Below, one piece after another: positions 10,924-28,498 of a DNA stretch of 64,000 nt. Source of the DNA: Lachnospiraceae bacterium (GTDB lineage: Bacteria > Bacillota > Clostridia > Lachnospirales > Lachnospiraceae); assembly GCA_029008875.1 (NCBI GenBank), contig JAQXJP010000035.1, forward strand, positions 1-64,000. Direction: 5' to 3'. Numbering within the stretch: the stretch's first letter is position 1; each line of letters starts with the position of its first letter. The notes under the pieces are model-generated. The model did not search any database, was not told the origin of the DNA, and worked only from the letters and a program-made list of their open reading frames with translations. Position numbers and translations under genes: made by a program.

Positions 10924-10953
10924 TAAAAACTAAAAAATGGCTCTGGAATAAAT

Positions 10954-10985
10954 AAAGTGTGCGCCGGGCGCACACTTTGTTTTAT
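10954..10985. terminator. Bidirectional intrinsic terminator
   Basis: Perfect stem AAAGTGTGCGCC / GGCGCACACTTT (sharing G in the loop) with A-rich sequence on one side and T-rich on the other. It ends the LytTR operon on the plus strand and the ECF S-component gene on the minus strand. Confidence 0.85.
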
Positions 10986-11008
10986 TGGCTTTGCATTTTT
11001 TATGAATA

Positions 11009-11542
11009 CTAACGATTAATCTGCCTGTCAATTATTTTGATTATTATAAATGCGTAAATGCCGCCGATAACAGCAGTTATCAGCTGTGTGAGGGAAAACT
11101 GCATCTGGAGAACTTTTATCATCGGTTTCATTTTTACCGGAAGCATCATAGGTAAAATTACAAGAGAAATAACTATTCCCATAAATGCAGCCTTTAATAT
11201 CGCACCAATGCCCATTGAAAGCGGAAGAGAAACTTTTCCACCGAACTTATCCTTTAAAAGGGCAATACATAATACGAGGATGATATTGCCAAGCATTATG
11301 CATGGAAACATCGCAGGGATTGCAGCCATAACAGGACTTCCGGTGATAAAGAAAGAAGTTATGGGTGTAATGATGCTTAAAATTATTCCGCAGGCGAGTC
11401 CTGCATATACGACAGTTAAAATAAGAGCAGCATTTATTATCGGACCGGTAATATATACGCTTAAATTTTTGAGAAACTGGCTTACAATACATATTGCGAG
11501 CATGATAGCTGTGAGTGTTATCTGTTTTGTCTTTATTTTCAT
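11009..11542 (-). CDS. ECF transporter substrate-binding (S) component
   Basis: A 177-residue membrane protein with about six hydrophobic segments and the N-terminal pattern of ECF S components (KQITLTAIMLAICIVSQF). The conserved small-residue helix PVMAAIPAMFPCIMLGNI follows. S components bind a vitamin or metabolite and share an EcfAAT energizing module. The neighbouring EcfT/EcfA genes (8533-9799) are dead, so this one would need another module or be an orphan. I see no riboswitch upstream, so the substrate is unknown. An AAGGAGGCGC box precedes the ATG. Confidence 0.8.
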   Translation of the reverse strand: MKIKTKQITLTAIMLAICIVSQFLKNLSVYITGPIINAALILTVVYAGLACGIILSIITPITSFFITGSPVMAAIPAMFPCIMLGNIILVLCIALLKDKFGGKVSLPLSMGIGAILKAAFMGIVISLVILPMMLPVKMKPMIKVLQMQFSLTQLITAVIGGIYAFIIIKIIDRQINR

Positions 11543-11645
11543 AAAGCGCCTCCTTATATTTTACGTTTATTTACAATTTAATTGCAAACAGTTACATAAT
11601 ACTACTGTTGCCTGAAAAAATCAAAAAAATATTTTGATTTTACTA

Positions 11646-11674
11646 TTGCAATCTAAACAGGTTTTTGATAGAAT
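11646..11674 (+). promoter_or_regulatory. Promoter of tRNA-Leu(CAG), left housekeeping block
   Basis: TTGCAA (11646-11651), 17-base spacer, TAGAAT (11669-11674). The tRNA in the right block has almost the same promoter (TTGCAT, 17, TAGAAT). Confidence 0.7.
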
Positions 11675-11685
11675 ATAGTCTGTTC

Positions 11686-11769
11686 GCAGGAGTGGCGGAA
11701 TTGGCAGACGCGCAGGCTTCAGGTGCCTGTGGTAGCAATATCGTGTGGGTTCAAGTCCCATCTCCTGCA
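11686..11769 (+). tRNA. tRNA-Leu, anticodon CAG (left housekeeping block)
   Basis: 84 bases, acceptor GCAGGAG / CTCCTGC, anticodon loop TTCAGGT. It differs from the copy at 28196-28279 at only two positions that I can see and opens the left copy of the mirrored block. Confidence 0.95.
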
Positions 11770-11828
11770 TTAGCTGAGGGAGCCGGAAATAAAGGCTTCC
11801 TTTTTGAGTTATATGGGAAGACATTACT

Positions 11829-13307
11829 ATGAAAAAACTAAATTTGATTCTAAAAGATGCGAGTGCATCCCCGGAACATCTGGTTATTTCCATAATTTTT
11901 TCGTTGTATGTTATGGAGTTTGTAAACCTTTTTATTGGAAGCATGGGAGGAATCCCGGCATTTATGGGTTCACTGGCAGTTTATTATATCCTTGCACTGG
12001 CAGTAAAAACAGAAAGTGAGACTCAAAAAGGTAAGGCGGCAGACAAAACGCAGATAAAGAATTTTCTTATAAATTATGTCCTGTTTTATGTAATTGTCTG
12101 GATAGCAATGGAGGTCATACTGTTTATTTCCAGATTTTCTGGCTGGGGAAATGTTAAAAAGCTTAATGTAAAACAGTACTTTAAAGGTATATATGGGGCA
12201 TCAGTGTCAGATAGCTGGATATATATTTTTGCTGCTTTTCTTGTGTTTGCGTTTATTGTATCACTGTTTCCACTTATTTTTGTCAGAACGAGAAAATACT
12301 GGATAGAATATATTATGACAGATAGCGTTATACATGCGCTTATCTGTGTCATGATAGTAGCTGTAGGTCGTATTTTTATATCTGGATCAGGCAGAAAGAA
12401 AGCAATGTGCGTGTTTGATGAATTGCTTTTATGTAAAAATATGGAAATATGGCAGATCATGCTGTTTTTGGCAGCGGCAGTTATCTTAACTGTGGCAGAA
12501 GTATATGCTGCATATAGGACTGCTCTTAAGATATGTATGATGCATCAGAAAGAAGTAAAGAAAAAAAGTGTCAGGATATCAACGGTTACAGTGGTACTTT
12601 TATTTGGATTGTGTGTGGCCGGAGCAGGAACGGTAGTGTTTTTTATGTCACCTGCAGATGATGAGGAGGCTGAGTACACAAGGGTTGCAAGGTGCCTTAC
12701 AGACGATTCGAAGATGGGACCTATGGTATACAGATCGCAGGTGTATGTGCCGATAAAAATAGAACTGGATTACGATGAAAATGGAAAAGCACTCGGTTAC
12801 ATAGGATACAAAGGTCAGGATTGTGAGAGCCGTTTCTATAAGATGGCTGTTGCAAATGTATTATATTCAGACAAAAAGGATGATCAGACATATATGCAGA
12901 TGTCAGGTGCGGACAGGTTATCCTACAAAAAAATGTCGGTCATGGAAAAAGTGGATTCATGGAAAAGGGACAATGTTTTTCTACTCTGGGATGAGGACTG
13001 GAGCAGTGAATCTGCGTACAGCAAGGAAGTTACAGGCTATACCGAATGTGAGAAGCAGTTTGTTGAAAGTCTCGAGAATACATTTGGAGAGGTGAAGATA
13101 GATCCGCAGGATTTCAAAAAGTACGATGCGTACTTTACTATAGAAAGCTATCCGGCAATGAAGGATGCCGTTGAGGGGGACAATCAGATAGGAACATGGG
13201 TTGGCTGTATTCTTGTAAAGGATAATAAATTTTACTATGGAAACTATGAAAATCAGATAACCGGGGTTCAGCTTCAAAAGCTTCTTGATGTGCTTGGAGG
13301 AAATTAG
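11829..13307 (+). CDS. Unknown membrane protein with large extracytoplasmic C-terminal domain
   Basis: A 492-residue protein I do not recognise. About six hydrophobic segments occupy residues ~15-70, ~80-110, ~135-165, ~175-200, ~215-235 and ~255-275. The last ~210 residues are hydrophilic and probably outside the membrane (YVPIKIELDYDENGKALGYIGYKG, YDAYFTIESYPAMKDAVEG). It lies between tRNA-Leu(CAG) and dgt only in the left copy of the block. A weak GGGAAGACATT precedes the ATG. No function is proposed. Confidence 0.7.
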   Translation: MKKLNLILKDASASPEHLVISIIFSLYVMEFVNLFIGSMGGIPAFMGSLAVYYILALAVKTESETQKGKAADKTQIKNFLINYVLFYVIVWIAMEVILFISRFSGWGNVKKLNVKQYFKGIYGASVSDSWIYIFAAFLVFAFIVSLFPLIFVRTRKYWIEYIMTDSVIHALICVMIVAVGRIFISGSGRKKAMCVFDELLLCKNMEIWQIMLFLAAAVILTVAEVYAAYRTALKICMMHQKEVKKKSVRISTVTVVLLFGLCVAGAGTVVFFMSPADDEEAEYTRVARCLTDDSKMGPMVYRSQVYVPIKIELDYDENGKALGYIGYKGQDCESRFYKMAVANVLYSDKKDDQTYMQMSGADRLSYKKMSVMEKVDSWKRDNVFLLWDEDWSSESAYSKEVTGYTECEKQFVESLENTFGEVKIDPQDFKKYDAYFTIESYPAMKDAVEGDNQIGTWVGCILVKDNKFYYGNYENQITGVQLQKLLDVLGGN

Positions 13308-13427
13308 TACATAAATTTTTTGAAATAAAATTCAAAAAAATAAAGGAAAAGCAAAAAATACATAGAATTATAAAAATGTAGGCATGAAAGTTGTTATTAC
13401 GCCAGTCACAAGGAGGCATGGGCATAT

Positions 13428-14441
13428 ATGACGATCAGGCAGCAGATAGAAGAGCGTGAAGAGGAAATTTTAAGTCCTTTTGCGTGTCTAAGCATAAATT
13501 CAAAAGGTCGTGACAAGGATGAGCCGCAGTGTGATATAAGACCTGTTTTTCAAAGAGACAGGGATCGGATATTACATAGCAAATCATTCCGGCGCCTAAA
13601 AAACAAAACACAGGTGTTCCTGACTCCGAAAGGGGATCATTACAGGACGAGAATGTCTCATACACTTGAGGTATCGCAGAATGCAAGGACGATAGCCAAG
13701 GCTCTGCGGTTAAATGAGGATCTGGTTGAGGCGATAGCGTTAGGACATGATCTTGGCCACACACCATTTGGACATGCAGGAGAGAATATTTTAAATGAGA
13801 TATATGAGGGCGGCTTTAAACACAATGAGCAGAGTGTGAGAATTGTTGAAAAGCTTGAAAAAGATGGTGCAGGGCTTAATCTTACATGGGAGGTAAGGGA
13901 TGGCATACTAAACCATCAGACGAGTCTTATGCCGCACACGCTTGAAGGTAAAATAGTGCGTCTATCAGATAAGATAGCATATATCAATTCTGATTTTGAT
14001 GATGCGATAAGAGCGCAGCTATTATGCGAGGATGATATTCCTCTTGAAATAAGAAAGACGCTTGGTTTTGACACAAAAAGCCGGCTTAATCATATGATAC
14101 ACAATATAATCACAAACAGCATGGATAAGGATGACATAATGATGTCGGAGGAATCAGCACAGGCAATGAAAGAACTCCGCAGATTTATGTTTGAGAACCT
14201 ATATAAAAATCCCGTTGCTAAGAGTGAAGAAGTAAAGGCGAAAGCCATGTTAGAGCAGCTGTATCATTACTATATGGATCACATAGATGAACTTCCAGAC
14301 AAGCTTCTTGTTATGCTGGATAACGGAGAAGACAGGGGGCGTATAGTCTGCGATTACATATCGGGAATGACAGATCAGTATGCTATAACAAAATTCCATG
14401 AATATTTTGTGCCGGTGGCATGGGAAATAGATGGATATTAA
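13428..14441 (+). CDS. dgt: Deoxyguanosinetriphosphate triphosphohydrolase-like protein (left copy)
   Basis: A 337-residue HD-domain phosphohydrolase that cuts dNTPs to nucleoside and triphosphate. Metal-binding residues are in RTRMSHTLEVSQNARTIA (His), IALGHDLGHTPFGHAGE (HD) and a later Asp in LSDKIAYINSDFDD. AAGGAGG at 13410-13416 sets the start. It is the first gene of the dgt-dnaG-rpoD-trmK-kinase cluster. The protein at 26996-28009 is an intact close homologue. Confidence 0.93.
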   Translation: MTIRQQIEEREEEILSPFACLSINSKGRDKDEPQCDIRPVFQRDRDRILHSKSFRRLKNKTQVFLTPKGDHYRTRMSHTLEVSQNARTIAKALRLNEDLVEAIALGHDLGHTPFGHAGENILNEIYEGGFKHNEQSVRIVEKLEKDGAGLNLTWEVRDGILNHQTSLMPHTLEGKIVRLSDKIAYINSDFDDAIRAQLLCEDDIPLEIRKTLGFDTKSRLNHMIHNIITNSMDKDDIMMSEESAQAMKELRRFMFENLYKNPVAKSEEVKAKAMLEQLYHYYMDHIDELPDKLLVMLDNGEDRGRIVCDYISGMTDQYAITKFHEYFVPVAWEIDGY

Positions 14442-14506
14442 ATGGATAAATATAAAATTTATTATAGATTTATTATTAGATCATAGATAGAGAGGAACAA
14501 TAAATA

Positions 14507-16288
14507 ATGCCGTACTATTCTGATGAACTTATTGAGGAAGTACGTTCCAGAAATGACATAGTGGATGTCATCGGAGGATATGTACATCTTCAAAAAAAGG
14601 GGAGTACATATTTTGGCTTATGTCCGTTCCACAATGAAAAAACAGGTTCGTTTTCTGTATCACCGAATAAACAGATGTATTACTGTTTTGGATGCGGAGC
14701 GGGTGGAAATGTTTTTACATTTCTTATGCAATATGAAAATTTTACATTTACAGAGGCTATGCAGGAGCTTGCAGATCGTGTAGGGATAGAGCTTCCTAAG
14801 CAGGAGATGACTGCAGCGCAGAAGCGGGAGGCGGATAAAAGGACACGTCTTTTGGAAATAAATAAAGAAGCAGCAAAATATTTTTACACTCTTTTAAGGA
14901 GTGAAAGAGGAAAGCGGGCTCATGATTATTTTAAGAAAAGAGAACTTTCGGATGAAACGATGCAGAAATTCGGTCTTGGATACTCTGATCAGTATAGCGA
15001 TGATCTATACAGATATTTAAGAAGCCGTGGATATGATGATGAGATCCTAAAAGAATCAGGACTTGTGACTATAGATGAAATGCGTGGAGGACACGACAAA
15101 TTCTGGAATCGTGCAATGTTTCCGATAATGGATGTCCATAACCGCGTTATAGGTTTTGGTGGACGTGTTATGGGGGATGGCGAACCGAAATATTTAAATT
15201 CCCCGGAGACAAAGATCTTTGACAAGAGCCGTAATCTTTACGGACTTAATATAGCAAGGACAACAAGGAAAAACCAGCTTTTATTGTGCGAGGGATATAT
15301 GGATGTTATAGCATTACATCAGGCCGGATTTGACAATGCTGTGGCATCGCTTGGAACCGCTCTTACGAGTGGACATGCATCATTGCTAAAACGCTACACA
15401 AAAGAAGTATATCTGACATATGACAGTGATGGCGCCGGGGTAAAGGCTGCACTGCGTGCGATCCCGATATTAAAAGAGGTCGGGATCACAACCAAAATCA
15501 TCAATATGCGGCCGTACAAGGATCCGGATGAATTTATAAAGGCACTCGGAGCCGGGGCATATCAGGAAAGAATTGACAATGCAGAAAACAGTTTTATGTT
15601 TCAGATTCGCATAATGCAGGAAAGCTACGATATGAAAGATCCTGAGTCAAAGACAGCTTTCTATAACGAGATGGCGAAGAAACTTTTAGATTTTCCGGAA
15701 GAGCTTGAAAGAAATAACTATATACAGGCGGTTGCGGAAACTTACAATATAGGTTTTGAAGAGCTGCGCCGTCTTGTAAATTCGCTTGCGGTAAAGGGCG
15801 GAATAGTTAAAGAGAGGACACCTCTTAAGAGTGGTATCAATGAGAAAAACAAAAAAGAAGACGGAATGAAGCAGTCACAGAAGCTACTCCTTACATGGCT
15901 CATAGAAGATACCGGTCTTTTTAAAAAAATAAATGGATATATATCTGAGAATGATTTCACAGAGGATTTATATCACAGGGTGGCTGTGATGGTGTTTACA
16001 CAGTTTAAGACTGACGGAGCCGTAAATCCGGCAAAAATAGTCAGCATGTTTCCGGATGAAGAGGAACAGCGTCAGGTTGCAGGTCTTTTTAATGCTACTA
16101 TCCACAAAGTTGAGGGAAAAAATGATAAAGAAACAGCCCTTAAGGAGACTATTATAAGAGTAAAGGAAAACAGCATTAATTACAGATCAGCCCATCTTTC
16201 ACCGACCGATATGGAAGGAATGATGAAGATAATAGACGATAAAAGATCACTGGAAGAATTAGAAAAATTGCATATTTCTATCGATTAG
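14507..16288 (+). CDS. dnaG: DNA primase (left copy)
   Basis: A 593-residue primase that makes RNA primers for replication. N-terminal zinc finger [15 protein letters not shown]...[11 protein letters not shown] (~40-68), TOPRIM catalytic core with [18 protein letters not shown] (~305-320) and a diverged C-terminal helicase-binding domain (~440-593). Normal length. An AGAGAGGAAC box precedes the ATG. An intact homologue of essentially the same length lies at 25185-26969, which is remarkable because dnaG is normally single copy. Confidence 0.96.
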
Positions 16289-16322
16289 GGAAAAAATACT
16301 AGAACAAAGAGGAAAAATTATA

Positions 16323-17582
16323 ATGGCTAAGAAAAAAGAACAGGCAGAAGTAGTAGAAACAGCAGAAATGAAAGCAAAGTTCCAGCAGAAGCTTATTGAA
16401 TTGCTGGCACTTGGCAAGAAAAAGAAAAATATTTTGGAATATCAGGAAATCAGTGATTTCTTCAAAGATATGAATCTTGATCCTGAAAAACTCGAGCTTG
16501 TGCTTGATTATCTTGAGCACAATGGCATTGACGTGCTTAAGATCAGTGATGATGATGACGATGTAGATGATGATATTCTGCTTGATGAGGAAGACGAGGT
16601 AGAGGTAGACAAGATCGATCTTTCTGTTCCTGATGGAGTAAGCGTTGAGGATCCTGTAAGAATGTACTTAAAAGAGATAGGAAAAGTTCCGCTTCTTAGT
16701 GCTGATGAAGAGATTGAGCTTGCGCAGAAGATGGAGGATGGTGCAGTTGCAGCAGAAAAGATATCTATCTTAAAGGGCAGAATGGATAATGCAACAGACG
16801 AAGAGAAAGCAGACTTAAAGGACGAGATAAAGAAGCTCCAGAAGGAGGTTGATTTTGGCGCTGATGCAAAAAAACGCCTTGCTGAAGCAAACTTACGTCT
16901 TGTTGTAAGTATCGCAAAAAGATATGTGGGACGAGGAATGCTCTTCCTTGATCTTATTCAGGAGGGAAATCTTGGCCTTATAAAAGCTGTAGAAAAATTT
17001 GACTATAAAAAAGGATACAAGTTCTCGACATATGCTACATGGTGGATACGTCAGGCAATAACCAGAGCAATTGCAGATCAGGCAAGAACGATCCGTATTC
17101 CTGTGCATATGGTAGAGACGATAAATAAATTAATAAGAGTCTCACGACAGCTCTTACAGGAACTTGGAAGAGAGCCGTCTCCGGAAGAAATCGCAGCAGA
17201 GATGAATATGCCTGTAGAAAGAGTACGTGAGATATTAAAGATATCACAGGAACCGGTTTCGCTTGAGACACCTATCGGAGAAGAGGAAGACTCACATCTT
17301 GGTGACTTTATAAAGGATGATAATGTCCCTGTACCGGCAGATGCGGCTGCATTTACACTACTTAAAGAGCAGCTTGAGGAAGTACTTGGAACACTTACAG
17401 AAAGAGAACAGAAAGTTCTTACACTTCGTTTTGGCTTAGAGGATGGAAGAGCCCGCACTCTTGAGGAAGTAGGTAAGGAGTTTAATGTAACACGAGAAAG
17501 AATCAGACAGATCGAGGCAAAAGCTCTCAGAAAACTTCGTCATCCTAGCCGTAGCAGAAAGCTGAAGGATTATCTGGAGTAA
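16323..17582 (+). CDS. rpoD: RNA polymerase primary sigma factor, sigma-A (left copy)
   Basis: 419 residues. Region 1.1 (~20-80) is followed by acidic DDDDDVDDD, then regions 1.2 ([18 protein letters not shown]), 2 ([28 protein letters not shown], the -10 reading part), 3 and 4 ([28 protein letters not shown], the -35 reading helix-turn-helix). The C-terminal ~235 residues are almost identical to the second sigma-A at 23885-25150, while the acidic N-terminal part differs. It is 1 base before trmK. Confidence 0.97.
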
Positions 17583-17583
17583 A

Positions 17584-18327
17584 ATGATTAAATTATCTAA
17601 ACGAATGAAGGCAGTTGCATCTATGGTTACGCAGGGATACAAGCTTTGTGATGTTGGAACAGACCATGGATATGTACCGATCTCACTTGTTGCGGATGGG
17701 ACTATACCGGAAGCTATTGCAGTTGATATTAATAAGGGACCGCTTGAACGTGCAAATCTCCATATACGTTCATGCGGACTTGAGGATAAGATAACTACAA
17801 GACTTTCAGATGGATTGTCTGCAGTAAAAGAGGGAGAGGCCGAGTCCATCATCATTGCGGGAATGGGTGGTGAACTCGTAATACATATTCTGACAGAGGG
17901 AGATGCTGTCTGCAAAAAAGCAAAAGAACTTATACTACAGCCACAGTCGGATATCCACAAAGTCCGGTACTACGTGAGAAATGCCGGGTATAAGATAGTC
18001 GATGAAGACATGGTTTTAGAAGACGGAAAATATTATCCGATCATGCGTGTCGTAAATGATACAAACAATTATGCGTGGGATAACATGGATGATATTTCGG
18101 TCGCTGTGTGCGATCTATATGGACCGTTTCTCATTAAAAACGGTAATCCGGTGCTTAGAAAATTTCTTGTAAAAGAACACCATAAGCTTGCGGACATAAT
18201 GCGTCAGCTCAAGAAACAGGAATCTTCTGATGCAATATTAAATAGAATAGAACAGGTAAATAAGCAGATAGAGTATAATGAGGCTGCTTATTCAACTATG
18301 GGGGCGATTCGTAATGCAGGAATATAA
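17584..18327 (+). CDS. trmK: tRNA (adenine(22)-N1)-methyltransferase, TrmK family (left copy)
   Basis: A 247-residue SAM-dependent methyltransferase that modifies A22 in tRNAs. SAM-binding motif KLCDVGTDHGYVPISLV (~20-36), then AVDINKGPLERA and IIAGMGGELVIHIL, and catalytic-region LQPQSDIHKVR. It follows rpoD by 1 base and overlaps the kinase gene by 14 bases, so the last three genes are translationally coupled in this copy. Confidence 0.92.
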   Translation: MIKLSKRMKAVASMVTQGYKLCDVGTDHGYVPISLVADGTIPEAIAVDINKGPLERANLHIRSCGLEDKITTRLSDGLSAVKEGEAESIIIAGMGGELVIHILTEGDAVCKKAKELILQPQSDIHKVRYYVRNAGYKIVDEDMVLEDGKYYPIMRVVNDTNNYAWDNMDDISVAVCDLYGPFLIKNGNPVLRKFLVKEHHKLADIMRQLKKQESSDAILNRIEQVNKQIEYNEAAYSTMGAIRNAGI

Positions 18328-19993
18328 AATAGACATAGTTCTTCCTGATGGAAATATTGAAAATGCAAATGTAGAAGAAAATACAAAAATCGAGGAACTT
18401 GCAAAAAAATATAATCCATTTTTTAAAAATCCGGTTATATTGTCTATATATAATGGAAAATTAAGAGAACTTTGTAAAAAGATCGACCGTGACGGTAAGA
18501 TCGAATTTCTGACTATAGCAGACAGGGATGGAAGAAGAACATACAGGAGAAGTGTAATACTTCTTCTGCAGAGAGCAGTTCAGAAATTATATGGAGATGA
18601 AGTAGAACTTAAAGTGCTGCATTCTCTGGGAGAGGGATACTATTGTGAGATAATAAACCTAAACAAAAGTGTACTTAAGCTTCATGAAGATGATATTTCA
18701 TCCATAAAAAAGACCATGGATCAGCTTGTGCAGCAGAATATCCCTATCACAAAGAGCAGCGAGAAAACACAGACCGCAGAGGAAATGTTTGCAGGTCTTG
18801 GAATGAAGGATAAAGAAAGACTGCTGCATTACAGGCGCAGCTCACGCGTCAATATATATGAATTAGATGGTATAAAAGACTATTTCTACGGCTATATGGC
18901 ACCATCTACCGGAGTCCTGAGATATTATGACGTTGTTTCATATGAGGATGGATTTGTTATTGTTTTTCCTTCAAAGGGTTCAAACAAAGTTGAGCCTCTT
19001 AATACTTCAAACAAATTATTTCATACGCTTGATGAGTCACGGGACTGGAGCCGCATGCTTGGAATAGGCACAGTAGGGGCATTAAACGATGCTATCTCAG
19101 CTGGAAAAGGACAGCAGATAATGCTTTTGCAGGAAGCCTTAATGGAAGAGAAGATAGGAAGGCTTGCAGCTGTTATTGCAGGAGACAATAAAAAGAAATT
19201 TGTGATGATAGCAGGACCGTCATCATCGGGAAAGACTTCGTTTGCAAACAGGCTGTCAATACAGCTTACAGCAAAGGGATTGAAGCCACATCCGGTAAGT
19301 CTGGACGATTACTATGCCGACAGGGAATTTTGTCCGAGAAATCCGGACGGAAGCTTTGATTTTGAATGTCTCGAAGCGTTGGATGTCGATCAGTTTAATA
19401 AAGACATGATGGATCTTTTAAACGGAATGGAAGTTAAGATGCCATCGTTTAATTTTAAGACGGGTAAACGTGAATACAGAGGTGATACCCTTAAGCTGGG
19501 AGATGGTGATATCCTTGTCATAGAGGGGATACACGGATTGAATGATAAGCTGTCATACATGCTTCCCTCAGAGTGTAAATTCAAGATCTATATTTCTGCG
19601 CTCACACAGCTTAATATTGATGAGCATAATCCGCTTCCGACTACAGATTCCCGCCTGATAAGAAGAATAGTAAGGGATGCACGTACAAGAGGAACAAATG
19701 CTAAGGAAACTATAGCTATGTGGCCATCAGTAAGAAATGGTGAGGAAAAAAATATTTTCCCTTATCAGGATAGTGCTGATGTGATGTTTAATTCTGCGCT
19801 CATATATGAGCTCCCTGTTTTAAAAGTGTATGCTGAACCGCTTCTTTTTGGAATCGGAAAGGACTGCCCGGAATACCTCGAGGCAAAAAGACTTCTTAAG
19901 TTTTTAGATTATTTTCTGCCACTTCCGGCGGAGGGAATACCGAACAATTCACTTGTGAGGGAGTTTGTCGGTGGCAGCTGCTTTAACGTTTGA
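18314..19993 (+). CDS. TGS-domain nucleoside (uridine-type) kinase (left copy)
   Basis: 559 residues from the ATG at 18314, which aligns with the start of the right copy (MQEYKIDIVLPDG versus MQEYELIVNLPND). An N-terminal TGS domain (~1-65) and a threonyl-tRNA-synthetase-like second domain (~70-200; LLQRAVQKLYG, GEGYYCEI) precede a P-loop kinase domain (~270-559) with Walker A GPSSSGKTSFANRL, substrate lid PVSLDDYYADRE and VIEGIHGLND. This fusion is common in Clostridia and annotated as nucleoside or uridine kinase. The true substrate is not settled by sequence. It ends SLVREFVGGSCFNV like its mirror copy. Confidence 0.85.
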   Translation: MQEYKIDIVLPDGNIENANVEENTKIEELAKKYNPFFKNPVILSIYNGKLRELCKKIDRDGKIEFLTIADRDGRRTYRRSVILLLQRAVQKLYGDEVELKVLHSLGEGYYCEIINLNKSVLKLHEDDISSIKKTMDQLVQQNIPITKSSEKTQTAEEMFAGLGMKDKERLLHYRRSSRVNIYELDGIKDYFYGYMAPSTGVLRYYDVVSYEDGFVIVFPSKGSNKVEPLNTSNKLFHTLDESRDWSRMLGIGTVGALNDAISAGKGQQIMLLQEALMEEKIGRLAAVIAGDNKKKFVMIAGPSSSGKTSFANRLSIQLTAKGLKPHPVSLDDYYADREFCPRNPDGSFDFECLEALDVDQFNKDMMDLLNGMEVKMPSFNFKTGKREYRGDTLKLGDGDILVIEGIHGLNDKLSYMLPSECKFKIYISALTQLNIDEHNPLPTTDSRLIRRIVRDARTRGTNAKETIAMWPSVRNGEEKNIFPYQDSADVMFNSALIYELPVLKVYAEPLLFGIGKDCPEYLEAKRLLKFLDYFLPLPAEGIPNNSLVREFVGGSCFNV

Positions 19994-20010
19994 TAATTAA
20001 TGATAAAAAT

Positions 20011-20089
20011 AAAAAATGCCGGCTGATCTTGATATGTACCGATTTTACCGGATAACGGTAAAAGGACATATCAAATCAGCCGGCATTTT
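20011..20089. terminator. Long bidirectional hairpin between convergent genes
   Basis: Arms AATGCCGGCTGATCTTGATATGT and ACATATCAAATCAGCCGGCATT flank an inner hairpin (TTTTACCG / CGGTAAAA). A-rich and T-rich edges fit termination from both sides. It overlaps the 3' end of the hydrolase gene. Confidence 0.8.
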
Positions 20090-20834
20090 CAGATTCTATA
20101 AAATCAATAGTTGCCTGAATCTGCTCATCCATTGTTATATCCGGATCTCCGTCACCTTTCTGGAGCCCATAGTTTCCAAAATATGAATGGCAGCCGCCAT
20201 CTATAACAAATTCATGCAGATCTTTTGGCAGATTTTTTTTGTATTTGTTGTAATTTTTTATGTTTAAAACTTTATCATTTGAGCCATAAACACTGTATAC
20301 AGACAGCCCGCTGTCTGACAGATCGGATGTTGAGTAGGCAGCGAAAAGAAAAAGACCATCTATTTTATCGGTGTTTTTTGCAGCGTATGATGCAGCCATG
20401 GCGCCGCCGGATGAATGACCACCGACATACCATTGTTTTACAGTTTTATATTTTTCTTTTAATGGATCGATATATTTATCGGCAGCATTTTTATCAAGTA
20501 TTGCCAGGTTATATGGCATATGGATCACCATACAGACGTATCCGTTTCTGGCAAATTCGTGTAAAAGAGGGGCGTAAGCGGTGTATTCAACTTTTGTGCC
20601 CGGATAAAAAATAAGTCCTTTTGTGGGATTTTCGGGAGAAAAAGTAATCGTCTTTTCATGCCGCTTTGATACCTTATCGACTGTTACGATATCGTCAGAT
20701 AAAAGTGCATCGGCAGATGTGGCTCCTGCGTGATAATAGTTTTTTGCATACGCTCCGAAACCATACTCTATAAGAGCTATTATAAGAACTGAAGCGATAA
20801 GAAGTTTGTAATATTTACAGATAAATTTTTTCAT
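20076..20834 (-). CDS. Membrane-anchored alpha/beta hydrolase (left copy)
   Basis: A 252-residue protein with an N-terminal membrane anchor (~5-25) and an exported alpha/beta hydrolase domain. Nucleophile elbow GGHSSGGAMAASYA, acid region SVYGSNDKVLN and catalytic His in VIDGGCHSYFGNYG. GLIFYPGTKVEYTAYAPLLHE marks the oxyanion strand. Substrate unknown; an ester or carboxylic hydrolase outside the cell is likely. Its 5' end faces the 3' end of rnpB in the same direction. A clear homologue lies at 45189-45959. Confidence 0.85.
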   Translation of the reverse strand: MKKFICKYYKLLIASVLIIALIEYGFGAYAKNYYHAGATSADALLSDDIVTVDKVSKRHEKTITFSPENPTKGLIFYPGTKVEYTAYAPLLHEFARNGYVCMVIHMPYNLAILDKNAADKYIDPLKEKYKTVKQWYVGGHSSGGAMAASYAAKNTDKIDGLFLFAAYSTSDLSDSGLSVYSVYGSNDKVLNIKNYNKYKKNLPKDLHEFVIDGGCHSYFGNYGLQKGDGDPDITMDEQIQATIDFIESENAG

Positions 20835-20852
20835 ATGTGATTCCTTTAATGT

Positions 20853-21197
20853 TATAAGCAGGACGATAAGCCGGGTTATGTCGTTGAGTGATCATCTATC
20901 TAGAACGCCTGTTGCCAGACGCTTCAAGCGACCTACCTAAAGCTGGCGGGCCACGTCAATGCTTTGTTTCGGTCTTGCTTCGGATGGGGTTTACATGTGC
21001 CCTTTCTGTTACCAGAAAGGCGGTAGTCTCTTACACTGCCATTCCACCCTTACCACAAAAGTGGCGGTATATTTCTGTTGCACTATCCTTAGAGTTTCCT
21101 CCACCGGCCGTTAACCGGCATCCTGCCCTATGAAGCCCGGACTTTCCTCACCTGCGGTCTTTCGACACTTGCAGCCGCGAGCGCCTGTTCTGCACAT
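20853..21197 (-). ncRNA. rnpB: RNase P RNA, bacterial class A
   Basis: On the minus strand the conserved class A blocks appear in order: GAGGAAAGTCCGGGCT, ACAGAAA, GGTAAGGGTGGAA, AGAGACTACCGC, GTAAACCCC, TAGATAGATGA and near the 3' end CATAACCCGGCTTATCG. This catalytic RNA cleaves the 5' leader of tRNA precursors. It has its own promoter (21204-21232). The two ends pair poorly: the only good terminal match I find is GCAG (21190-21193) with CTGC (20858-20861), where class A RNAs normally have a long P1 helix. It lies exactly at the centre of the mirrored housekeeping blocks. Ends are approximate. Confidence 0.93.
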
Positions 21198-21203
21198 TTA
21201 CCT

Positions 21204-21232
21204 AATATAGCAACTGACACGGAAAAAAGCAA
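21204..21232 (-). promoter_or_regulatory. Promoter of rnpB
   Basis: -35 TTGCTT (21227-21232), 17-base spacer, -10 TATATT (21204-21209) on the minus strand, just after the right-hand kinase gene. Confidence 0.8.
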
Positions 21233-21252
21233 GCGATTTCTACCTTCCTCCG

Positions 21253-22983
21253 CTACACGTTAAAACAGCTTCCACCCACAAACTCGCGCACCAGAGAATT
21301 CTTGTGAATTCCCTCCGTCGGCATGGGCAGAAAATAATCCAAAAACTTTAACAAACGTTTTGCTTCCAGGTACTCCGGGCAATCTCTTGGGATTGCAAAA
21401 AGCAAGGGCTCCGCATACACCTTGATAACTGCAAGTTCATATACCAGCGCGGAATTGAACATGATGTCGGCGCTGTCCTGGAATGGGAAAATATTCTGTT
21501 CCTCGCCCCGGCGAACCGACGGCCACATGGCAATTGTCTCCCTGGCGTTGGTTCCTCTGGTTCTGGCATCCCGCACAATTCTGCGAAGCAATCTTCCGTC
21601 CGTTGTAGGAAGCGGATTGTGTTCATCAATGTTGAGCTGTGTCAGCGCGGAAATATAAATCTTGAACTTGGACTCCGCCGGAAGCATGTAGGACAATTTG
21701 TCATTGAGCCCGTGAATTCCCTCGATAACCAGAATATCATCCTTGCCCAACTGCAAAACCCTTCCCCGATACTCCCGCTTTCCGGTCTTGAAGTTGAAGG
21801 AGGGCATATCCACCGCCTCGCCTGCCAAAAGCCTTGCCATATCCTGATTAAACTGTTCCACATCCAGGGCTTCCAGACATTCGAAGTCAAAGCTGCCGTC
21901 CGGATTCCTCGGACAGGTCTCCCGGTCCCCGTAATAGTCATCCAAACTCACCGGATGGGGGTTCAATCCCTTCGCCATCAGCTGGATGGACAGACGGTTG
22001 GCAAAGGACGTCTTGCCGGAGGAGGACGGCCCCGCAATCATGACAAACTTTTTCTGGCGATCCGCAGCAATCTGCGTCGCCAAATCGCCGATGCGATCCT
22101 CCATCAAAGCCTCCTGCAGAAGCATCAGCTCCTGCCCCCTTCCCTGGGCAATTGCCTCATTCAGGGCGCCGATGGTTCCAACCCCAAGCATCTTGCTCCA
22201 TTCCCGGGATTCCTTGAGGGTGTGGAACAATTTGTTGGAAGTCTTAAGCGGCTCTACCTTCTTGGAATCGGTACTTGGAAAAAGGATTACGAACCCTTCC
22301 TCATACTGCTCCAGGTCAAAAACCCCGAGCATTCCGGTATTCGGGGCCATATATCCGTAAAAATAATCCTCCACTCCGTCCAGTTTGTAGAGATTCACAT
22401 GGGAGCTTCTGCGGTAATGAAACAGCTTGGCCTTATCCTGCATCCCTTTTTTTGCGAACATCTCCTCCGCATCCAGCGTCTTCATGCTGTGCTTTACAAT
22501 CGGGAGATTCTGTTCGCACAATTCTTCCATACAAGTGCGAATCCGCTCAATTTCTCCGGCATCAATCCTCATCTTGGCAATTGCGGAATCCTCTCGGGAC
22601 TCCCCCTCCGCTTCCCCGGCGTTTTCCCGGGCCTTTAGCATGTGGATCTCGCAATAGTATCCCTCGCCGAGAGAATAGAGCACCCTGAGGTAAGCCTCGC
22701 TTCCATACACCTTCTGCACCGCCTTCTGGAGCAATAGTGTCACACTTCTGCGATACGTCTTCTTGCCGTCCCGATCCAACACCGTCACAAAGGAGAGTTC
22801 CCCGGACTTCTCCACGGGTTTCGACAGTTCCTTCAACTTTCCGTTGACCATGGCCAGAATAATACCGTCCGAATACCTTTCCTGATATCGGTTGGCCAAA
22901 GTTTCCAGCGTGGTCCCCTCGGATACGGTAATCTTCTCCGACACATCATTCGGTAAATTTACAATAAGTTCATATTCTTGCAT
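21253..22983 (-). CDS. TGS-domain nucleoside (uridine-type) kinase (right copy)
   Basis: 576 residues from the ATG at 22983, which has a GGGGGG box 8 bases before it; an ATG 15 bases upstream is less likely. Same order as the left copy: TGS (~1-65), synthetase-like domain (~70-210, with an insertion ARENAGEAEGESREDS absent from the left copy) and P-loop kinase with GPSSSGKTSFANRL, DDYYGDRETCPRNP and VIEGIHGLND. GC-rich codons throughout. Ends in the same SLVREFVGGSCFNV. Confidence 0.86.
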   Translation of the reverse strand: MQEYELIVNLPNDVSEKITVSEGTTLETLANRYQERYSDGIILAMVNGKLKELSKPVEKSGELSFVTVLDRDGKKTYRRSVTLLLQKAVQKVYGSEAYLRVLYSLGEGYYCEIHMLKARENAGEAEGESREDSAIAKMRIDAGEIERIRTCMEELCEQNLPIVKHSMKTLDAEEMFAKKGMQDKAKLFHYRRSSHVNLYKLDGVEDYFYGYMAPNTGMLGVFDLEQYEEGFVILFPSTDSKKVEPLKTSNKLFHTLKESREWSKMLGVGTIGALNEAIAQGRGQELMLLQEALMEDRIGDLATQIAADRQKKFVMIAGPSSSGKTSFANRLSIQLMAKGLNPHPVSLDDYYGDRETCPRNPDGSFDFECLEALDVEQFNQDMARLLAGEAVDMPSFNFKTGKREYRGRVLQLGKDDILVIEGIHGLNDKLSYMLPAESKFKIYISALTQLNIDEHNPLPTTDGRLLRRIVRDARTRGTNARETIAMWPSVRRGEEQNIFPFQDSADIMFNSALVYELAVIKVYAEPLLFAIPRDCPEYLEAKRLLKFLDYFLPMPTEGIHKNSLVREFVGGSCFNV

Positions 22984-23022
22984 TATTTTTCCCCCCATTT
23001 TCCTGATTATTATTCCTTCACC

Positions 23023-23739
23023 CTACACAAAGCGCATCTGCGCCAAACGATTGCATTCTATTTTATGCTCCAGCTGCCCAATTCTTACCTCAAGCTTTTC
23101 GGAGGCCGGCTGTCCCTTGAGATTCGCCAGTATCTCCCCAAAATGCCGCTCCTCCTTCTGCAAAAATGCAAAGAGCACCGGATTCCTCTCCCTGAGAAGA
23201 ATCGGTCCGTACAATGCCTCAATCTCGGACAATTCTTCGGCGGGCTCCGGAATCACCCGCATCATGGGATAATACTTCCCGTCGTCCAGCACCATATCCT
23301 CCTGCCGGATGCGGTATCCTTTCTCCGCCAGATACCTTCGCACCTCCGCCAGCTCCGACTGGGGTTGCAGAATCAATTCCTTTGCGCTCCTGCAAACCGC
23401 TTCCCCGTCGCTTAGGATATGCATCACCAGCTCGCCGCCCATTCCGGCTACCACGATGGAATCCGCCTCCCCGGGCGTCAGCGCTGCCACTCCATCCGAC
23501 AATCTGGTCTCAATCCAATCCTCCAGCCCGTATTCTGCGATATGCTTTTTCGCCCGGTCCAAGGGCCCGACCCGCAGATCCATGGCAATCGCTTTCTTTA
23601 CTTTTTTCCGCTGCACCATCGCAATGGGGATGTACCCGTGGTCCGTGCCCACGTCCGCCAAAACTCCGCTTGCGGAAATCAGCCCGGCCACCGCCTCCAT
23701 CCTCACCGACAGTGCGATTAATTTCTCTCTGCCACTCAT
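23023..23739 (-). CDS. trmK: tRNA (adenine(22)-N1)-methyltransferase, TrmK family (right copy)
   Basis: 238 residues from MSGREKLIALSVRMEAV. SAM site VLADVGTDHGYIPIAMV, then VVAGMGGELVMHIL and LQPQSELAEVR, matching the left copy. The frame is open further upstream to 23880, but that part runs through a terminator and does not match the left protein, so the start is put at 23739, although no strong ribosome site is visible there. It is separated from rpoD by a terminator, unlike the left copy. Confidence 0.88.
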   Translation of the reverse strand: MSGREKLIALSVRMEAVAGLISASGVLADVGTDHGYIPIAMVQRKKVKKAIAMDLRVGPLDRAKKHIAEYGLEDWIETRLSDGVAALTPGEADSIVVAGMGGELVMHILSDGEAVCRSAKELILQPQSELAEVRRYLAEKGYRIRQEDMVLDDGKYYPMMRVIPEPAEELSEIEALYGPILLRERNPVLFAFLQKEERHFGEILANLKGQPASEKLEVRIGQLEHKIECNRLAQMRFV

Positions 23740-23773
23740 ATTCCATATTATAACTTTTCTTGCCGATTTAAGC

Positions 23774-23825
23774 AAGAAAACAGCCCCATCAACACACTTC
23801 AACAAGGGATGTGTGCCGATGGGGC
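23774..23825 (-). terminator. Intrinsic terminator between rpoD and trmK (right copy)
   Basis: On the minus strand stem GCCCCATC...GATGGGGC with an inner ACAC/GTGT pairing and a TGTTTT tail. No counterpart exists in the left copy where rpoD and trmK are 1 base apart. Confidence 0.7.
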
Positions 23826-23884
23826 ATGTAGAAAAATCATCGTATAGCACGAAACACAAAATTCCATGCAACCACTTCATGCAA

Positions 23885-25150
23885 CTACTCCAGGTAATCC
23901 TTCAGCTTACGGCTGCGGCTCGGATGGCGAAGCTTGCGAAGAGCCTTTGCCTCGATCTGGCGGATACGCTCACGGGTTACGTTGAATTCCTTGCCCACTT
24001 CCTCCAGGGTGCGGGCACGTCCATCCTCAAGGCCGAAACGAAGGGTAAGAACCTTTTGCTCACGCTCTGTCAAGGTGCCGAGGACCTCCTCCAGCTGCTC
24101 CTTCAGCAGGGTAAATGCCGCTGCGTCTGCCGGAACCGGGACATTCTCATCGCGAATGAAATCACCCAGATGGGAATCCTCCTCCTCACCGATTGGAGTC
24201 TCCAGAGACACCGGCTCCTGAGAGATTTTGAGAATCTCACGGACACGCTCCACCGGCATACTCATCTCCTCTGCGATTTCTTCCGGGCTGGGCTCACGTC
24301 CCAGCTCCTGGAGAAGCTGTCTGGACACACGGATCAACTTGTTGATGGTCTCAACCATATGAACCGGAATACGGATGGTTCTCGCCTGATCCGCAATGGC
24401 TCTGGTGATTGCCTGGCGAATCCACCATGTAGCGTAGGTGGAGAACTTGTATCCCTTGCGGTAATCAAATTTTTCCACCGCCTTGATCAGACCAAGATTT
24501 CCCTCCTGAATCAGGTCGAGGAACAGCATGCCACGTCCCACGTAGCGCTTTGCAATGCTGACAACCAGACGAAGATTGGCCTCCGCCAGCCGCTTTTTCG
24601 CATCGCTTCCTGCGTCAACTTCCTTCTGGAACTCCTTGATGTCAGCGCGAATCTCCTCCTGCTCTTCCTCGCTTGCGGTTTCGAGACGCTTCTTCAGGAT
24701 ATTGATCTTCTCGGAAGCCACGTTTCCGGCCTCCATCTTCTTAGCCAGCTCGATCTCCTCCTCCGCGGTCAGAAGGGGAACCTTACCAATCTCCTTGAGG
24801 TACATGCGCACCGGATCCTCCACGCTGACGCCGTCCGGAACGGAGAGGTCGATATCAACCTCCTCCACTTCCTCCGCATCCTCATCCGCCAGCTCGATTT
24901 CGATCTCATCATCGTCATCCATGCTGATCTTGAGCACATCGATGCCGTTTTGTTCCAGGGTATCAAACACCTGCTCCATCTTCTCGGCATCCAGAGGCAT
25001 ATCCTTGAAAAAGTCATTGATTTCGGCATCTTCCAAAATATTTTTCTTTTTCTTGCCCATTTCCAGGAGTTCTTTCATTTTCTCCTGAAATTTCACTTCC
25101 AACTCGTCGGTACTTACTGCTTCTAAATTCTCTTCTTTCTTTTTTGCCAT
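23885..25150 (-). CDS. rpoD: RNA polymerase primary sigma factor, sigma-A (right copy)
   Basis: 421 residues with the same region layout as the left copy: acidic [14 protein letters not shown] in region 1, [54 protein letters not shown] and the C-terminal [18 protein letters not shown] helix-turn-helix. Regions 2-4 differ from the left copy by a handful of conservative changes, yet synonymous codons differ widely. Both would read the same promoters. GAGGATG lies before the ATG. Confidence 0.97.
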
Positions 25151-25184
25151 TTTTATACATCCTCGTTATTTTTGTATTTTGTCC

Positions 25185-26969
25185 CTATTCTATGGAAATA
25201 TGCAAATGTTCCAACTGATCCAGGGCCTTCTTGTCCTGTACTACCTGCATGAGGCCCGCCATATCCTCCGGCGCCAAATTCTTGGAGCGCTCATCGATGC
25301 TGTTTCGTTTCACACGGATGATGGTCTCCTTGATGGCCTTTGCCAAATCGTTTTTCGACTCGACCTCATGTATCGTCGCGTTGAACAACCCCGCGACTTC
25401 ATTTTGCTCTTCCTCATCCTCGAACAGATTGATAATCATCGCCGGATTTACGCTTCCCGTCTCCTCAAACTGTGAAAACACAATCTCTGCCGCCCTGCGG
25501 TACAACGGTTCCGTAAAATCCATCGGTGTAATCCATTCCTTGACTTTTCCGTAGAGGGAAGTGTTCTCAATCAGCCAGGTCAACAGCAGCTTCTGGGATT
25601 GCTTCATGCCGTCCTCTTTCTTTCTGTTCTCATGAACCCCGCTTTTTAGCGGCTCTTGACGTTGTACCACGCCGCCGTTTTTCATAGCCAGATTGTTTAC
25701 CAGCTTCCTCAGGTTGTCAAAATCGATGTGGAATTTTTGTGCCACCGCTTCCATGTAATTGTTCCGCTCCAATTCCTCGGAAAATTCCAGTAGGCGGTTG
25801 GCGATTTCATTATAAAATGCAGTCTTGGATTCCGGATCGTCCATATCATAGCTTTCCTGCAGAATCCGAATCTGAAACAGAAAACTGTTCTCCGCCTCAT
25901 CGATTCGTTTCTGATACTCCTCGGCACCCAGTGCCTTGATGAATTCATCCGGGTCCTTATAGGGCCGCATATTAATGACTTTTGTTACAATACCCACTTC
26001 CTTGAGTATTGGGATAGCCCGAAGGGCAGCTTTCACACCGGCCCCATCGCTATCGTAGGTCAAATAGACCTCCTTGGTATATCTCTTGAGCAAATTGGCG
26101 TGTCCGCTGGTAAGCGCGGTTCCAAGAGATGCCACCGCGTTGTCAAACCCTGCCTGGTGCAGTGCGATGACATCCATATAGCCTTCGCACAGCAGCAATT
26201 GGTTTCTTCTGGTGGTCCTTGCCAGGTGCAATCCGTACAGATTGCGGCTCTTGTCAAAAATCTTGGTCTCCGGCGAATTCAAATACTTTGGCTCACCCTC
26301 GCCCATCACTCTACCGCCAAAACCAATGACACGGTTGTGCACATCCATGATTGGAAACATGGCACGATTCCAGAACTTGTCGTGTCCGCCGCGCACCTCA
26401 TCGATGGTGACCAGCCCGGAATCCTTCAGGATATCGTCATCGTATCCCTTTTTCCGGAGATACCGGTACAGATCATCGCTATACTGGTCCGAATACCCAA
26501 GGCCAAACTTCTGCATGGTCTCGTCGGACAATTCTCTCGTCTTAAAATAGTCATATGCCCTTTTACCCCTCGGGCTTCGCAACAGGGAATAAAAATACTT
26601 GGCGGCTTCCTTGTTAATCTCAAGCAGCCTGGTTCTCCGGTCTGCTTCCTTTTTCTGGGCCGAAGTCATCTCCTGCTGGGGGAGTTCCACCCCCGCACGG
26701 TTCGCCAGCGTCTGCATGGCCTCGCTGAAGGTAAAGTTTTCGTATTTCATCAAAAAGGTGAAAACATTGCCCCCCGCGCCGCATCCGAAGCAGTAAAACA
26801 TCTGCTTGTTCGGCGATACCGAGAAAGATCCTGTTTTCTCATTGTGAAACGGGCACAATCCAAAATAAGTGCTGCCCTTTTTCTGAAGGCGCACATATCC
26901 GCCGATGACATCCACAATGTCATTGCGGGAGCGCACTTCCTCAATCAGCTCATCCGAATAGAACGGCAT
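25185..26969 (-). CDS. dnaG: DNA primase (right copy)
   Basis: 594 residues, zinc finger [15 protein letters not shown]...[36 protein letters not shown]-terminal helicase-binding region from ~440. Residues and length match the left copy closely, with most differences in the C-terminal third. AGAGGAGGGG precedes the ATG. 34 bases before rpoD. Confidence 0.96.
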   Translation of the reverse strand: MPFYSDELIEEVRSRNDIVDVIGGYVRLQKKGSTYFGLCPFHNEKTGSFSVSPNKQMFYCFGCGAGGNVFTFLMKYENFTFSEAMQTLANRAGVELPQQEMTSAQKKEADRRTRLLEINKEAAKYFYSLLRSPRGKRAYDYFKTRELSDETMQKFGLGYSDQYSDDLYRYLRKKGYDDDILKDSGLVTIDEVRGGHDKFWNRAMFPIMDVHNRVIGFGGRVMGEGEPKYLNSPETKIFDKSRNLYGLHLARTTRRNQLLLCEGYMDVIALHQAGFDNAVASLGTALTSGHANLLKRYTKEVYLTYDSDGAGVKAALRAIPILKEVGIVTKVINMRPYKDPDEFIKALGAEEYQKRIDEAENSFLFQIRILQESYDMDDPESKTAFYNEIANRLLEFSEELERNNYMEAVAQKFHIDFDNLRKLVNNLAMKNGGVVQRQEPLKSGVHENRKKEDGMKQSQKLLLTWLIENTSLYGKVKEWITPMDFTEPLYRRAAEIVFSQFEETGSVNPAMIINLFEDEEEQNEVAGLFNATIHEVESKNDLAKAIKETIIRVKRNSIDERSKNLAPEDMAGLMQVVQDKKALDQLEHLHISIE

Positions 26970-26995
26970 GCGCCCCTCCTCTCTAAATCTGTCGA

Positions 26996-28009
26996 TTAAA
27001 ATCCATCAACCTGCCACGCCATCGGAATGTAGAACTCCTCAAATTTTGTGATGGCGTACTGGTCCGTCATGCCGGAGATGTAATCGCACACCACGGTGCT
27101 CTTCTCCTCCCCCGCCTGCAGCATGTGAAGCATTTTATCCGGAAGCAGTTCCACATGCTCCATATAATAATGGAACATTCTCTCAATCATGGCTTCCGCC
27201 TTCACTTCCTCCGACTTTGCAATCGGGTTGGTATATAAGTTGTCAAACATGAACTTGCGCAGTTCCAAAAATGCCTGCCAGGAAGCATCTGACATGACAA
27301 TGTCATCCTTGCCCATGCTGTTGATGATAATGTCATGGATCAAGTGATCCAGGCGGCTCTTCGTGTCAAAGCCCAGTTCCTTGCGCAGTTCTAGAGGAAT
27401 GTCCTCCTCGTTCAGAAGCTGTGCCCGAATTCCGTCATCGAAATCGGCATTCACATAAGCAATCTTGTCGCAGATGCGGACAGCTCGTCCCTCCAGAGTG
27501 GCTGCCTGCAGCTCCATCTCGTGATTCAAGATTCCATCCCGGACTTCCCAGGTCAGATTCAGGCCTTCCCCGTCTTTTTCCAGCTTCTCAACAATGCGCA
27601 CACTCTGCTCGTTATGCTTGAATCGTCCATCCGTCAGTCTGGAGAGAACCCTCTCCCCTGCATGTCCAAATGGGGTATGTCCCAAATCGTGCCCGAGAGC
27701 GATTGCCTCCACCAAATCCTCGTTCAGACGAAGGGCCTTCGCGATGGTTCTGGCATTCTGGGACACCTCCAAGGTGTGGGACATTCTGGTCCGGTAGTGA
27801 TCCCCCTTGGGCGTCAGGAAAACTTGGGTCTTATTCTTCAGTCGCCGAAAAGACTTGCTATGTAAGATACGGTCACGATCTCGCTGAAAGACCGGTCTGA
27901 TATCACATTGCGGCTCGTCCACATCCCTGCCCCTGGAATTCACACTAAGGCACGCAAACGGACTCAATGTATCTCTTTCCATCTGTTCAATTTGCTCACG
28001 AATCGTCAT
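26996..28009 (-). CDS. dgt: Deoxyguanosinetriphosphate triphosphohydrolase-like protein (right copy)
   Basis: 337 residues from the ATG at 28009, chosen because GGAGGT lies 7 bases before it and the protein then begins MTIREQIEQ like the left copy (MTIRQQIEE); an ATG 33 bases upstream is less likely. HD motifs IALGHDLGHTPFGHAGE and RTRMSHTLEVSQN are intact. 26 bases before dnaG. Confidence 0.93.
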   Translation of the reverse strand: MTIREQIEQMERDTLSPFACLSVNSRGRDVDEPQCDIRPVFQRDRDRILHSKSFRRLKNKTQVFLTPKGDHYRTRMSHTLEVSQNARTIAKALRLNEDLVEAIALGHDLGHTPFGHAGERVLSRLTDGRFKHNEQSVRIVEKLEKDGEGLNLTWEVRDGILNHEMELQAATLEGRAVRICDKIAYVNADFDDGIRAQLLNEEDIPLELRKELGFDTKSRLDHLIHDIIINSMGKDDIVMSDASWQAFLELRKFMFDNLYTNPIAKSEEVKAEAMIERMFHYYMEHVELLPDKMLHMLQAGEEKSTVVCDYISGMTDQYAITKFEEFYIPMAWQVDGF

Positions 28010-28152
28010 ACGGTGTACCTCCACATTTTCATATTTCGACATGCCTTGCCCAATTCCTTTTTTTATTTTTAATTTTTTTTAAAAAGTTGATTGTATGACT
28101 AAATTCTGACAGGTGTGCCAAAATAGCACCCGAAGAGAAAACAAATGAATAT

Positions 28153-28184
28153 AAAAAAGAGAAGCCTTGATAATCAAGACTTCC
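28153..28184 (-). terminator. Intrinsic terminator after tRNA-Leu(CAG), right block
   Basis: On the minus strand AAGTCTTG / CAAGGCTT stem with CTCTTTTTT tail, shortly after the tRNA and before dgt. Confidence 0.7.
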
Positions 28185-28195
28185 CTCAATTTGAA

Positions 28196-28279
28196 TGCAG
28201 GAGATGGGACTTGAACCCACACGGTATTGCTACCACAGGCACCTGAAGCCTGCGCGTCTGCCAATTCCACCACTCCTGC
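28196..28279 (-). tRNA. tRNA-Leu, anticodon CAG (right housekeeping block)
   Basis: 84 bases, acceptor GCAGGAG / CTCCTGC, anticodon loop TTCAGGT, long variable arm. Mirror partner of 11686-11769. Confidence 0.95.
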
Positions 28280-28290
28280 GAACAAATGCT

Positions 28291-28319
28291 ATTCTAACAG
28301 ATTGACTTACAGAATGCAA
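28291..28319 (-). promoter_or_regulatory. Promoter of tRNA-Leu(CAG), right block
   Basis: TTGCAT (28314-28319), 17-base spacer, TAGAAT (28291-28296) on the minus strand. Confidence 0.7.
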
Positions 28320-28354
28320 GAGGAAATTTTGGGCACGTTCCTTTTGTCACGTCA

Positions 28355-28492
28355 CTACTTACATTGCACTGTCTTATAGTCATGAAAAACCGCATTCAGC
28401 ACATCCCCTCCTCTTCCGGTGCAAAGGAAAGTCGGGTGCTCCAATCTGCCCGACAAATCCTCGGGCCTCCCGTCACACAACGAATACTGCAT
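28355..28492 (-). CDS. Possible small protein, 45 residues, unknown
   Basis: ATG at 28492 with AAAGGAGAG about 9 bases before it, inside the end of the acetyltransferase gene upstream. The product is rich in Gly, Asp and Cys (MQYSLCDGRPEDLSG to DYKTVQCK) and I do not recognise it. It may be a real small gene coupled to the acetyltransferase or a chance frame. Apart from this, the ~220 bases between tRNA and acetyltransferase hold only the tRNA promoter. Confidence 0.3.
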   Translation of the reverse strand: MQYSLCDGRPEDLSGRLEHPTFLCTGRGGDVLNAVFHDYKTVQCK

Positions 28493-28498
28493 GTTGCT

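Follow-up and report, generated by a model that had tools for sequence, protein, structure and literature searches.

An inverted pair of dgt-dnaG-rpoD blocks meeting at rnpB in a Lachnospiraceae contig is very likely an assembly artefact

We analyzed a stretch of 64,000 nucleotides from a Lachnospiraceae bacterium (contig JAQXJP010000035.1 of assembly GCA_029008875.1), hereafter the window, in which a housekeeping block made of tRNA-Leu(CAG), dgt, dnaG, rpoD, trmK and a kinase gene is present twice, in mirror orientation around rnpB. The window makes up the first 64 kb of C35, a 401,935-bp contig of the genome bin G000, which comprises 2,634,885 bases on 43 contigs with a completeness of 93.11 and a contamination of 1.45. 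C10 is another contig of this bin, other G-numbers designate the further genomes of the genus that were compared, and LEFT and RIGHT designate the sides of the window to the left and to the right of rnpB. With a probability of about 97%, the window represents a chimeric contig that arose by a join at rnpB in the short-read assembly of a mixed community, and the double block is very likely an assembly artefact and not a real feature. The first-pass annotation of the window had favored a chimeric contig, a reading now supported by the likely continuation of the right block on C10 of the same bin and by a second misjoin found there.

A hybrid rnpB at the junction

The class A rnpB of the window (20851..21196, minus strand) matches Rfam RF00010 with 271.9 bits against a gathering threshold of 100, yet its P1 and P2 helices contain broken pairs, three of which are internal, as a hybrid would be expected to show. 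In the Rfam alignments of seven comparison rnpB, the P1/P2 break marks stand at the three outermost P1 positions only. For a pairing count, the inner seven P1 pairs and the seven P2 pairs were read on both strands, with reads anchored on the conserved core, in the 32 distinct rnpB readable by pattern in the fetched loci, a sample that does not hold every rnpB there. Three of these 14 pairs are broken in the window rnpB (2/7 in P2 and 1/7 in inner P1). No break was observed in 29 others and a single broken P1 pair in the remaining two (L106 and L205); broken P2 pairs occur in the window rnpB only, among the 32. A genuine second block should have intact rnpB helices at the junction, and this count speaks against it.

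The two strands of the helices point to different sources. The window 5' strand pairs without any break to one of the 32 3' strands, that of C10, and the window 3' strand pairs without any break to nine of the 32 5' strands, including that of G015, which belongs to the left lineage. At 20851-21073, a part for which C10 represents RIGHT itself, the window, G015 and C10 differ in 37 columns, and the window matches G015 in 26 of them, C10 in three and neither in eight. Judged by pairing and column matches, the window rnpB is a hybrid that holds the misjoin, its 3' part coming from the left species and its 5' end from the right species. The crossover interval lies in the conserved rnpB core (21086..21168, no strand assigned), where 83 bp are identical to G013/G015 and 72 of them (21086-21157) are also identical to C10. 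The prediction that the two loci were joined at a shared conserved sequence is thus supported by a mismatched hybrid rnpB with a conserved core. The broken P1/P2 pairing of such a hybrid also provides a cheap test for chimeras that needs no reads.

Another explanation could be that the LEFT piece was only placed in the wrong bin and never misjoined, in keeping with the contamination listed for the bin. However, LEFT and RIGHT are on one contig, connected through the hybrid rnpB, indicating an error in the assembly and not in the binning alone; a pure binning error has next to no probability.

The two blocks and their lineages

The left block runs on the plus strand from tRNA-Leu(CAG) (11686..11769, ARAGORN) through dgt (13428..14441; NCBIfam NF002327), dnaG (14507..16288; TIGR01391), rpoD (16323..17582; NF006666 and TIGR02393) and trmK (17584..18327; Pfam PF04816, without NCBIfam match) to the kinase gene (18278..19993; Pfam PF00485, with NCBIfam uridine-kinase models below cut-off only). 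On the minus strand of the right side, the kinase (21253..22998), trmK (23023..23880), rpoD (23885..25150), dnaG (25185..26969) and dgt (26996..28042) match the same PF00485, PF04816, NF006666 and TIGR02393, TIGR01391 and NF002327 models and are followed by tRNA-Leu(CAG) (28196..28279, ARAGORN); on both sides, these model matches are above cut-off. Open reading frames (ORFs), tRNAs and rnpB were thus found in the places, the order and the mirror orientation given by the first-pass annotation, and all ORF pairs are full length, in agreement with its statement that all proteins are intact.

The left and right proteins share 77.4% identity for dgt, 80.4% for dnaG, 84.7% for rpoD, 50.9% for trmK and 70.7% for the kinase. 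At the DNA level, the sides are 71.0% identical across 4,180 bp from dgt to rpoD and 70.0% identical across 1,272 bp of the kinase gene, far beyond chance. The two DnaG had been called nearly identical, which does not hold at 80.4%; the same description of sigma-A regions 2-4 fits the conserved part of RpoD in a translated comparison (about 91%) better than the whole protein. As to the presumed TGS nucleoside kinase, both proteins indeed match the phosphoribulokinase/uridine kinase family, but no TGS domain is reported in either of them at E <= 0.001.

dnaG and rpoD had been taken to be normally single copy, and the searches agree with this for the genus. A search with the right DnaG gave exactly one match at E <= 1e-100 in 57 of the 61 other genus genomes, none in four (G007, G068, G070 and G083), and two in G000 only. 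With the left RpoD, exactly one match at E <= 1e-120 was obtained in 56 of 59 other genomes and none in three. Gene-order stretches laid out from 39 other genus genomes contained no second block.

To place the two sides, we used a five-protein tree of 20 taxa, namely 18 relatives, LEFT and RIGHT; L175 and L180, in which the kinase is missing or cut, were left out, and G016 and other later-fetched loci are absent from it. LEFT is sister to G013/G015 with a support of 100, and RIGHT groups with G012 with a support of 95. RIGHT is closest to G012 in all five proteins, and LEFT is closest to G013/G015 for dgt, dnaG and trmK; G016 DnaG is closer to that of RIGHT than G012 DnaG is (84 vs 82 percent). 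LEFT resembles G013/G015 in having an rnpB that points toward the block and a hydrolase gene that separates the two, but in these genomes the hydrolase gene runs with the block. The tree thus assigns LEFT and RIGHT to different lineages of one genus, in line with the view that the two blocks are orthologous loci of related species. It also answers the earlier proposal to place both RpoD and both DnaG in a tree, the sides separating into different lineages.

The mirror-image order of the blocks, and the tRNA-Leu(AAG) genes found farther out on both sides (531-617 and 40457-40543), could also suggest that the block was duplicated long ago in one genome, in tandem or inverted, and that the copies then diverged, all the more since the LEFT kinase is as near to that of RIGHT as to that of its nearest relative. 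However, the copies group with other species and not with each other in the five-protein tree, and GC content and GC skew differ over whole segments, making an old duplication vanishingly improbable.

The GC content changes from 0.385 left of rnpB to 0.475-0.51 right of it, confirming the strong difference seen earlier between the sides. The sign of the GC skew flips at rnpB: in 5-kb steps, all four values for the left 20 kb are positive, and beyond 20 kb, up to the end of C35, 76 of 77 are negative. When the 42 other G000 contigs were compared (first 20 kb at most of each), the tetranucleotide profile was closer to RIGHT than to LEFT in 32. By its tetranucleotide profile and GC skew, the RIGHT segment (21197..64000, minus strand), which continues to the C35 end at 401,935 bp, is assigned to the main genome of the bin. 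The LEFT segment (1..20850, plus strand; 21 kb at the contig start), with its GC content of 0.385, its positive GC skew and its tree position, is probably a piece of DNA from a different species within the genus.

Several neighboring features accompany the blocks. An alpha/beta-hydrolase gene (20076..20834, minus strand; PF12695) lies between the left kinase and rnpB, unlike the right side, where no such gene separates kinase and rnpB; its homologues in G013/G015, 52-53% identical, adjoin rnpB in the opposite orientation with respect to the block, and a further homologue (52%) is present in the right part of the window at 45243-45932. The left side contains an extra 492-aa ORF (11829-13307) between tRNA and dgt, and a further tRNA-Leu(CAG) at 278-361 is found on this side only. 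Beside the right tRNA-Leu, 28499-29455 encodes a 318-residue protein with a match to PF00302 (chloramphenicol acetyltransferase family) over residues 103-303. The right M18 aminopeptidase separates the lineages poorly (G005 70%, G011 and G012 69%, G013 68%), and so does the left alpha-amylase. In the relatives, two dnaG reading frames hold one internal TAG each (G082:C3:10887-12677 and G031:C41:8-1657), and a TwoAYGGAY RNA (RF01731) is located between dgt and dnaG of G013 (L167 7726-7894).

Contig C10 and a second misjoin

In the gene-order stretches of the 39 relatives, rnpB was found in 31, on the block strand in 25 and on the opposite strand in six (G005, G013, G015, G016, G017 and G032). 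The DUF5685 gene is in the same stretch as rnpB in 26 of these 31 genomes. In 21 of the 26, the block, rnpB, a small gene, the DUF5685 gene and a DnaJ-domain gene are all on one strand, and in four (G013, G015, G017 and G032) rnpB alone is inverted and the remaining order is the common one. In G016 (L195 7559-9958), rnpB and the DnaJ-domain, DUF5685 and small genes are all on the strand opposite the block. G012 has the common order spread over two contigs, and in G003, G005, G035 and G060 the stretch stops or has no DUF5685, DnaJ or small genes.

Another rnpB of G000 is located at C10:71728-72075 and leaves 384 bp to the contig end. Behind it are a small gene without Pfam match, a DUF5685 gene that is single-copy in G000, a DnaJ-domain gene, pyrB and pyrI. 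Since the genes that follow the kinase and rnpB in most relatives examined sit on C10, this contig is, by gene order, most likely the continuation of the right block's own locus. The sequence upstream of this rnpB runs out in a DnaJ-domain gene, of which 88 residues remain at the C10 end; this fragment is 71 percent identical to the full C10 copy and 97.7 percent identical to the copy of G016, a genome in which the DnaJ-domain gene runs into rnpB. The C10 end including the rnpB 5' half (L186 19513-20000) is identical to G016 at 479 of 488 positions (98.2 percent), and at 375 of 384 outside rnpB alone. Farther on, the identity drops to 218/244 (89 percent) for the 3' part of rnpB and to 33/68 (49%) past it. 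As G016 and the right block are only 76.6 percent alike over 4.2 kb, these identities trace the C10 end to the species of G016, or to a very close one, rather than to RIGHT, and mark it as another misjoin at rnpB. In this assembly, rnpB thus seems to be the meeting point of three species.

Other ways of relating C10 to the window failed. We looked for an overlap of the C10 end with the right kinase as the missing link and found none, since the C10 end is itself misjoined. We discarded a tandem duplication of the rnpB-DUF5685-DnaJ segment, DUF5685 being single in G000 and the sole second copy of the DnaJ-domain gene being the terminal fragment; two other G000 matches to this gene are weak and confined to roughly the first 100 residues. 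A simple reciprocal exchange of LEFT and RIGHT between C10 and C35 was also rejected: the C10 5' strand breaks two of the 14 pairs against the 3' strand of the window, and it matches G016.

These results also bear on the possibility that the window is real chromosome, the complete block from tRNA-Leu to kinase having been integrated at rnpB from a congener by Campbell-type homologous recombination, which would equip the bacterium with two primases and with two primary sigma factors of different origin. Every copy is full length, and a single crossover in rnpB would likewise produce a hybrid rnpB at both ends, in keeping with the second rnpB on the C10 end. However, such an integration predicts a C10 5' half from the LEFT species, and this half instead matches G016 and leaves the two broken pairs against the LEFT 3' strand of the window. 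Moreover, two blocks were found in none of the other genus genomes searched, and no independent or closed genome had the arrangement, the single-contig genomes G015, G034 and G061 holding one block each. A real integration is accordingly very improbable.

As biology, the double block is without significance. As a caution, metagenome-assembled genomes of this genus seem to break or to be misjoined at rnpB, considering the two misjoins in G000 and the congeners in which rpoD and the DUF5685 gene are separated: both genes were found in 20 of the 23 congeners searched for both, on one contig in 13 and on two contigs in seven. A break in another conserved gene was observed in G023, whose dnaG is split across two contig ends, C105 and C140 (L196 and L197).

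Proposed origin of the join

Contig ends carry an assembly signature. Among 58 G000 contig ends compared, ten pairs have exactly 141 bp in common, and two G012 contigs break within rnpB, C33 at its end and C11 at its start, with an overlap that is again exactly 141 bp (L170 18102-18242 and L189 1-141). We take such exact 141-bp shared ends to be the trace of a de Bruijn assembler with a final k of 141. MEGAHIT uses a k value such as 141. The switch between species presumably took place in the assembly graph rather than in a cell.

In the sequence of events that we propose, the RIGHT species would most likely have the order kinase, rnpB, small unnamed gene, DUF5685 gene, DnaJ-domain gene and pyrB, and the LEFT species, a second one of the genus, would have an rnpB that points toward its own block. 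The two rnpB would share their direction and an almost invariant core. The assembler would enter this core from the RIGHT kinase side and exit it on the LEFT side, and the switch would yield both the hybrid rnpB and the two mirror-image blocks. The remainder of the RIGHT rnpB and the genes that follow would be left as contig C10, whose own end was misjoined within this core as well, to sequence from the species of G016 as a third one. According to a passage of PMC8171044, sequence common to related species is known to give rise to chimeric nodes in multispecies de Bruijn graphs.

Several observations weigh against a chimera made in this way. The exact core common to the window and C10 is 72 bp, less than 141; with a core of 72-83 bp, the switch would have to date from a smaller k or from another step. 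The LEFT species itself is not among the genomes compared, the best DnaG match being 86 percent, and the 5' half of LEFT's own rnpB was not found. The nearest relatives also vary with the protein: LEFT RpoD is 91.1% identical to the partial sequence of G034 and 90.3% to that of G019, also partial, vs 90.2% to G013/G015, the partial G034 is level with G012 for RIGHT RpoD, and the LEFT kinase is as close to RIGHT (70.7%) as to G015 (70.5%). The LEFT tree placement rests on the block proteins, the genes at 1-11.6 kb being outside the tree, and the left alpha-amylase (3064-4746) is closest to G019 (67%) vs about 40% for G013/G015, so that a shared nearest relative of the 1-11.6 kb end and of the left block is not shown. 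Base composition is mixed as well. The tetranucleotide comparison favors RIGHT for most contigs, but ten of the 42 are closer to LEFT, which suggests either that the G000 genome is uneven or that the bin is mixed. C35 also has a second low-GC stretch, at about 200-305 kb (L115-L121): 100 kb with a GC content of 0.32-0.45 inside a contig of about 0.5, the sign of the skew being unchanged. This stretch may be an island, natural variation or a further misjoin. Composition alone would thus not be decisive and seems to support the split in part only; given these mixed GC, skew and tetranucleotide results, we rejected it as the only proof of a chimera.

Compared with the dgt-dnaG-rpoD block of the genus, each side of the window alone has an ordinary gene order, with rnpB behind the kinase, and two blocks on one contig were found only in the window, among the genomes examined. 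The features of an interspecies chimera are found together here: a different species on each side, a junction in a conserved sequence, and a continuation of RIGHT elsewhere in the assembly. The case resembles the interspecies chimeric contigs formed at a "chimeric node", as that passage of PMC8171044 presents them, the node being here the rnpB core, at which three species seem to meet. It differs from the chimera described in the same passage in that the displaced partner was recovered in the same bin.

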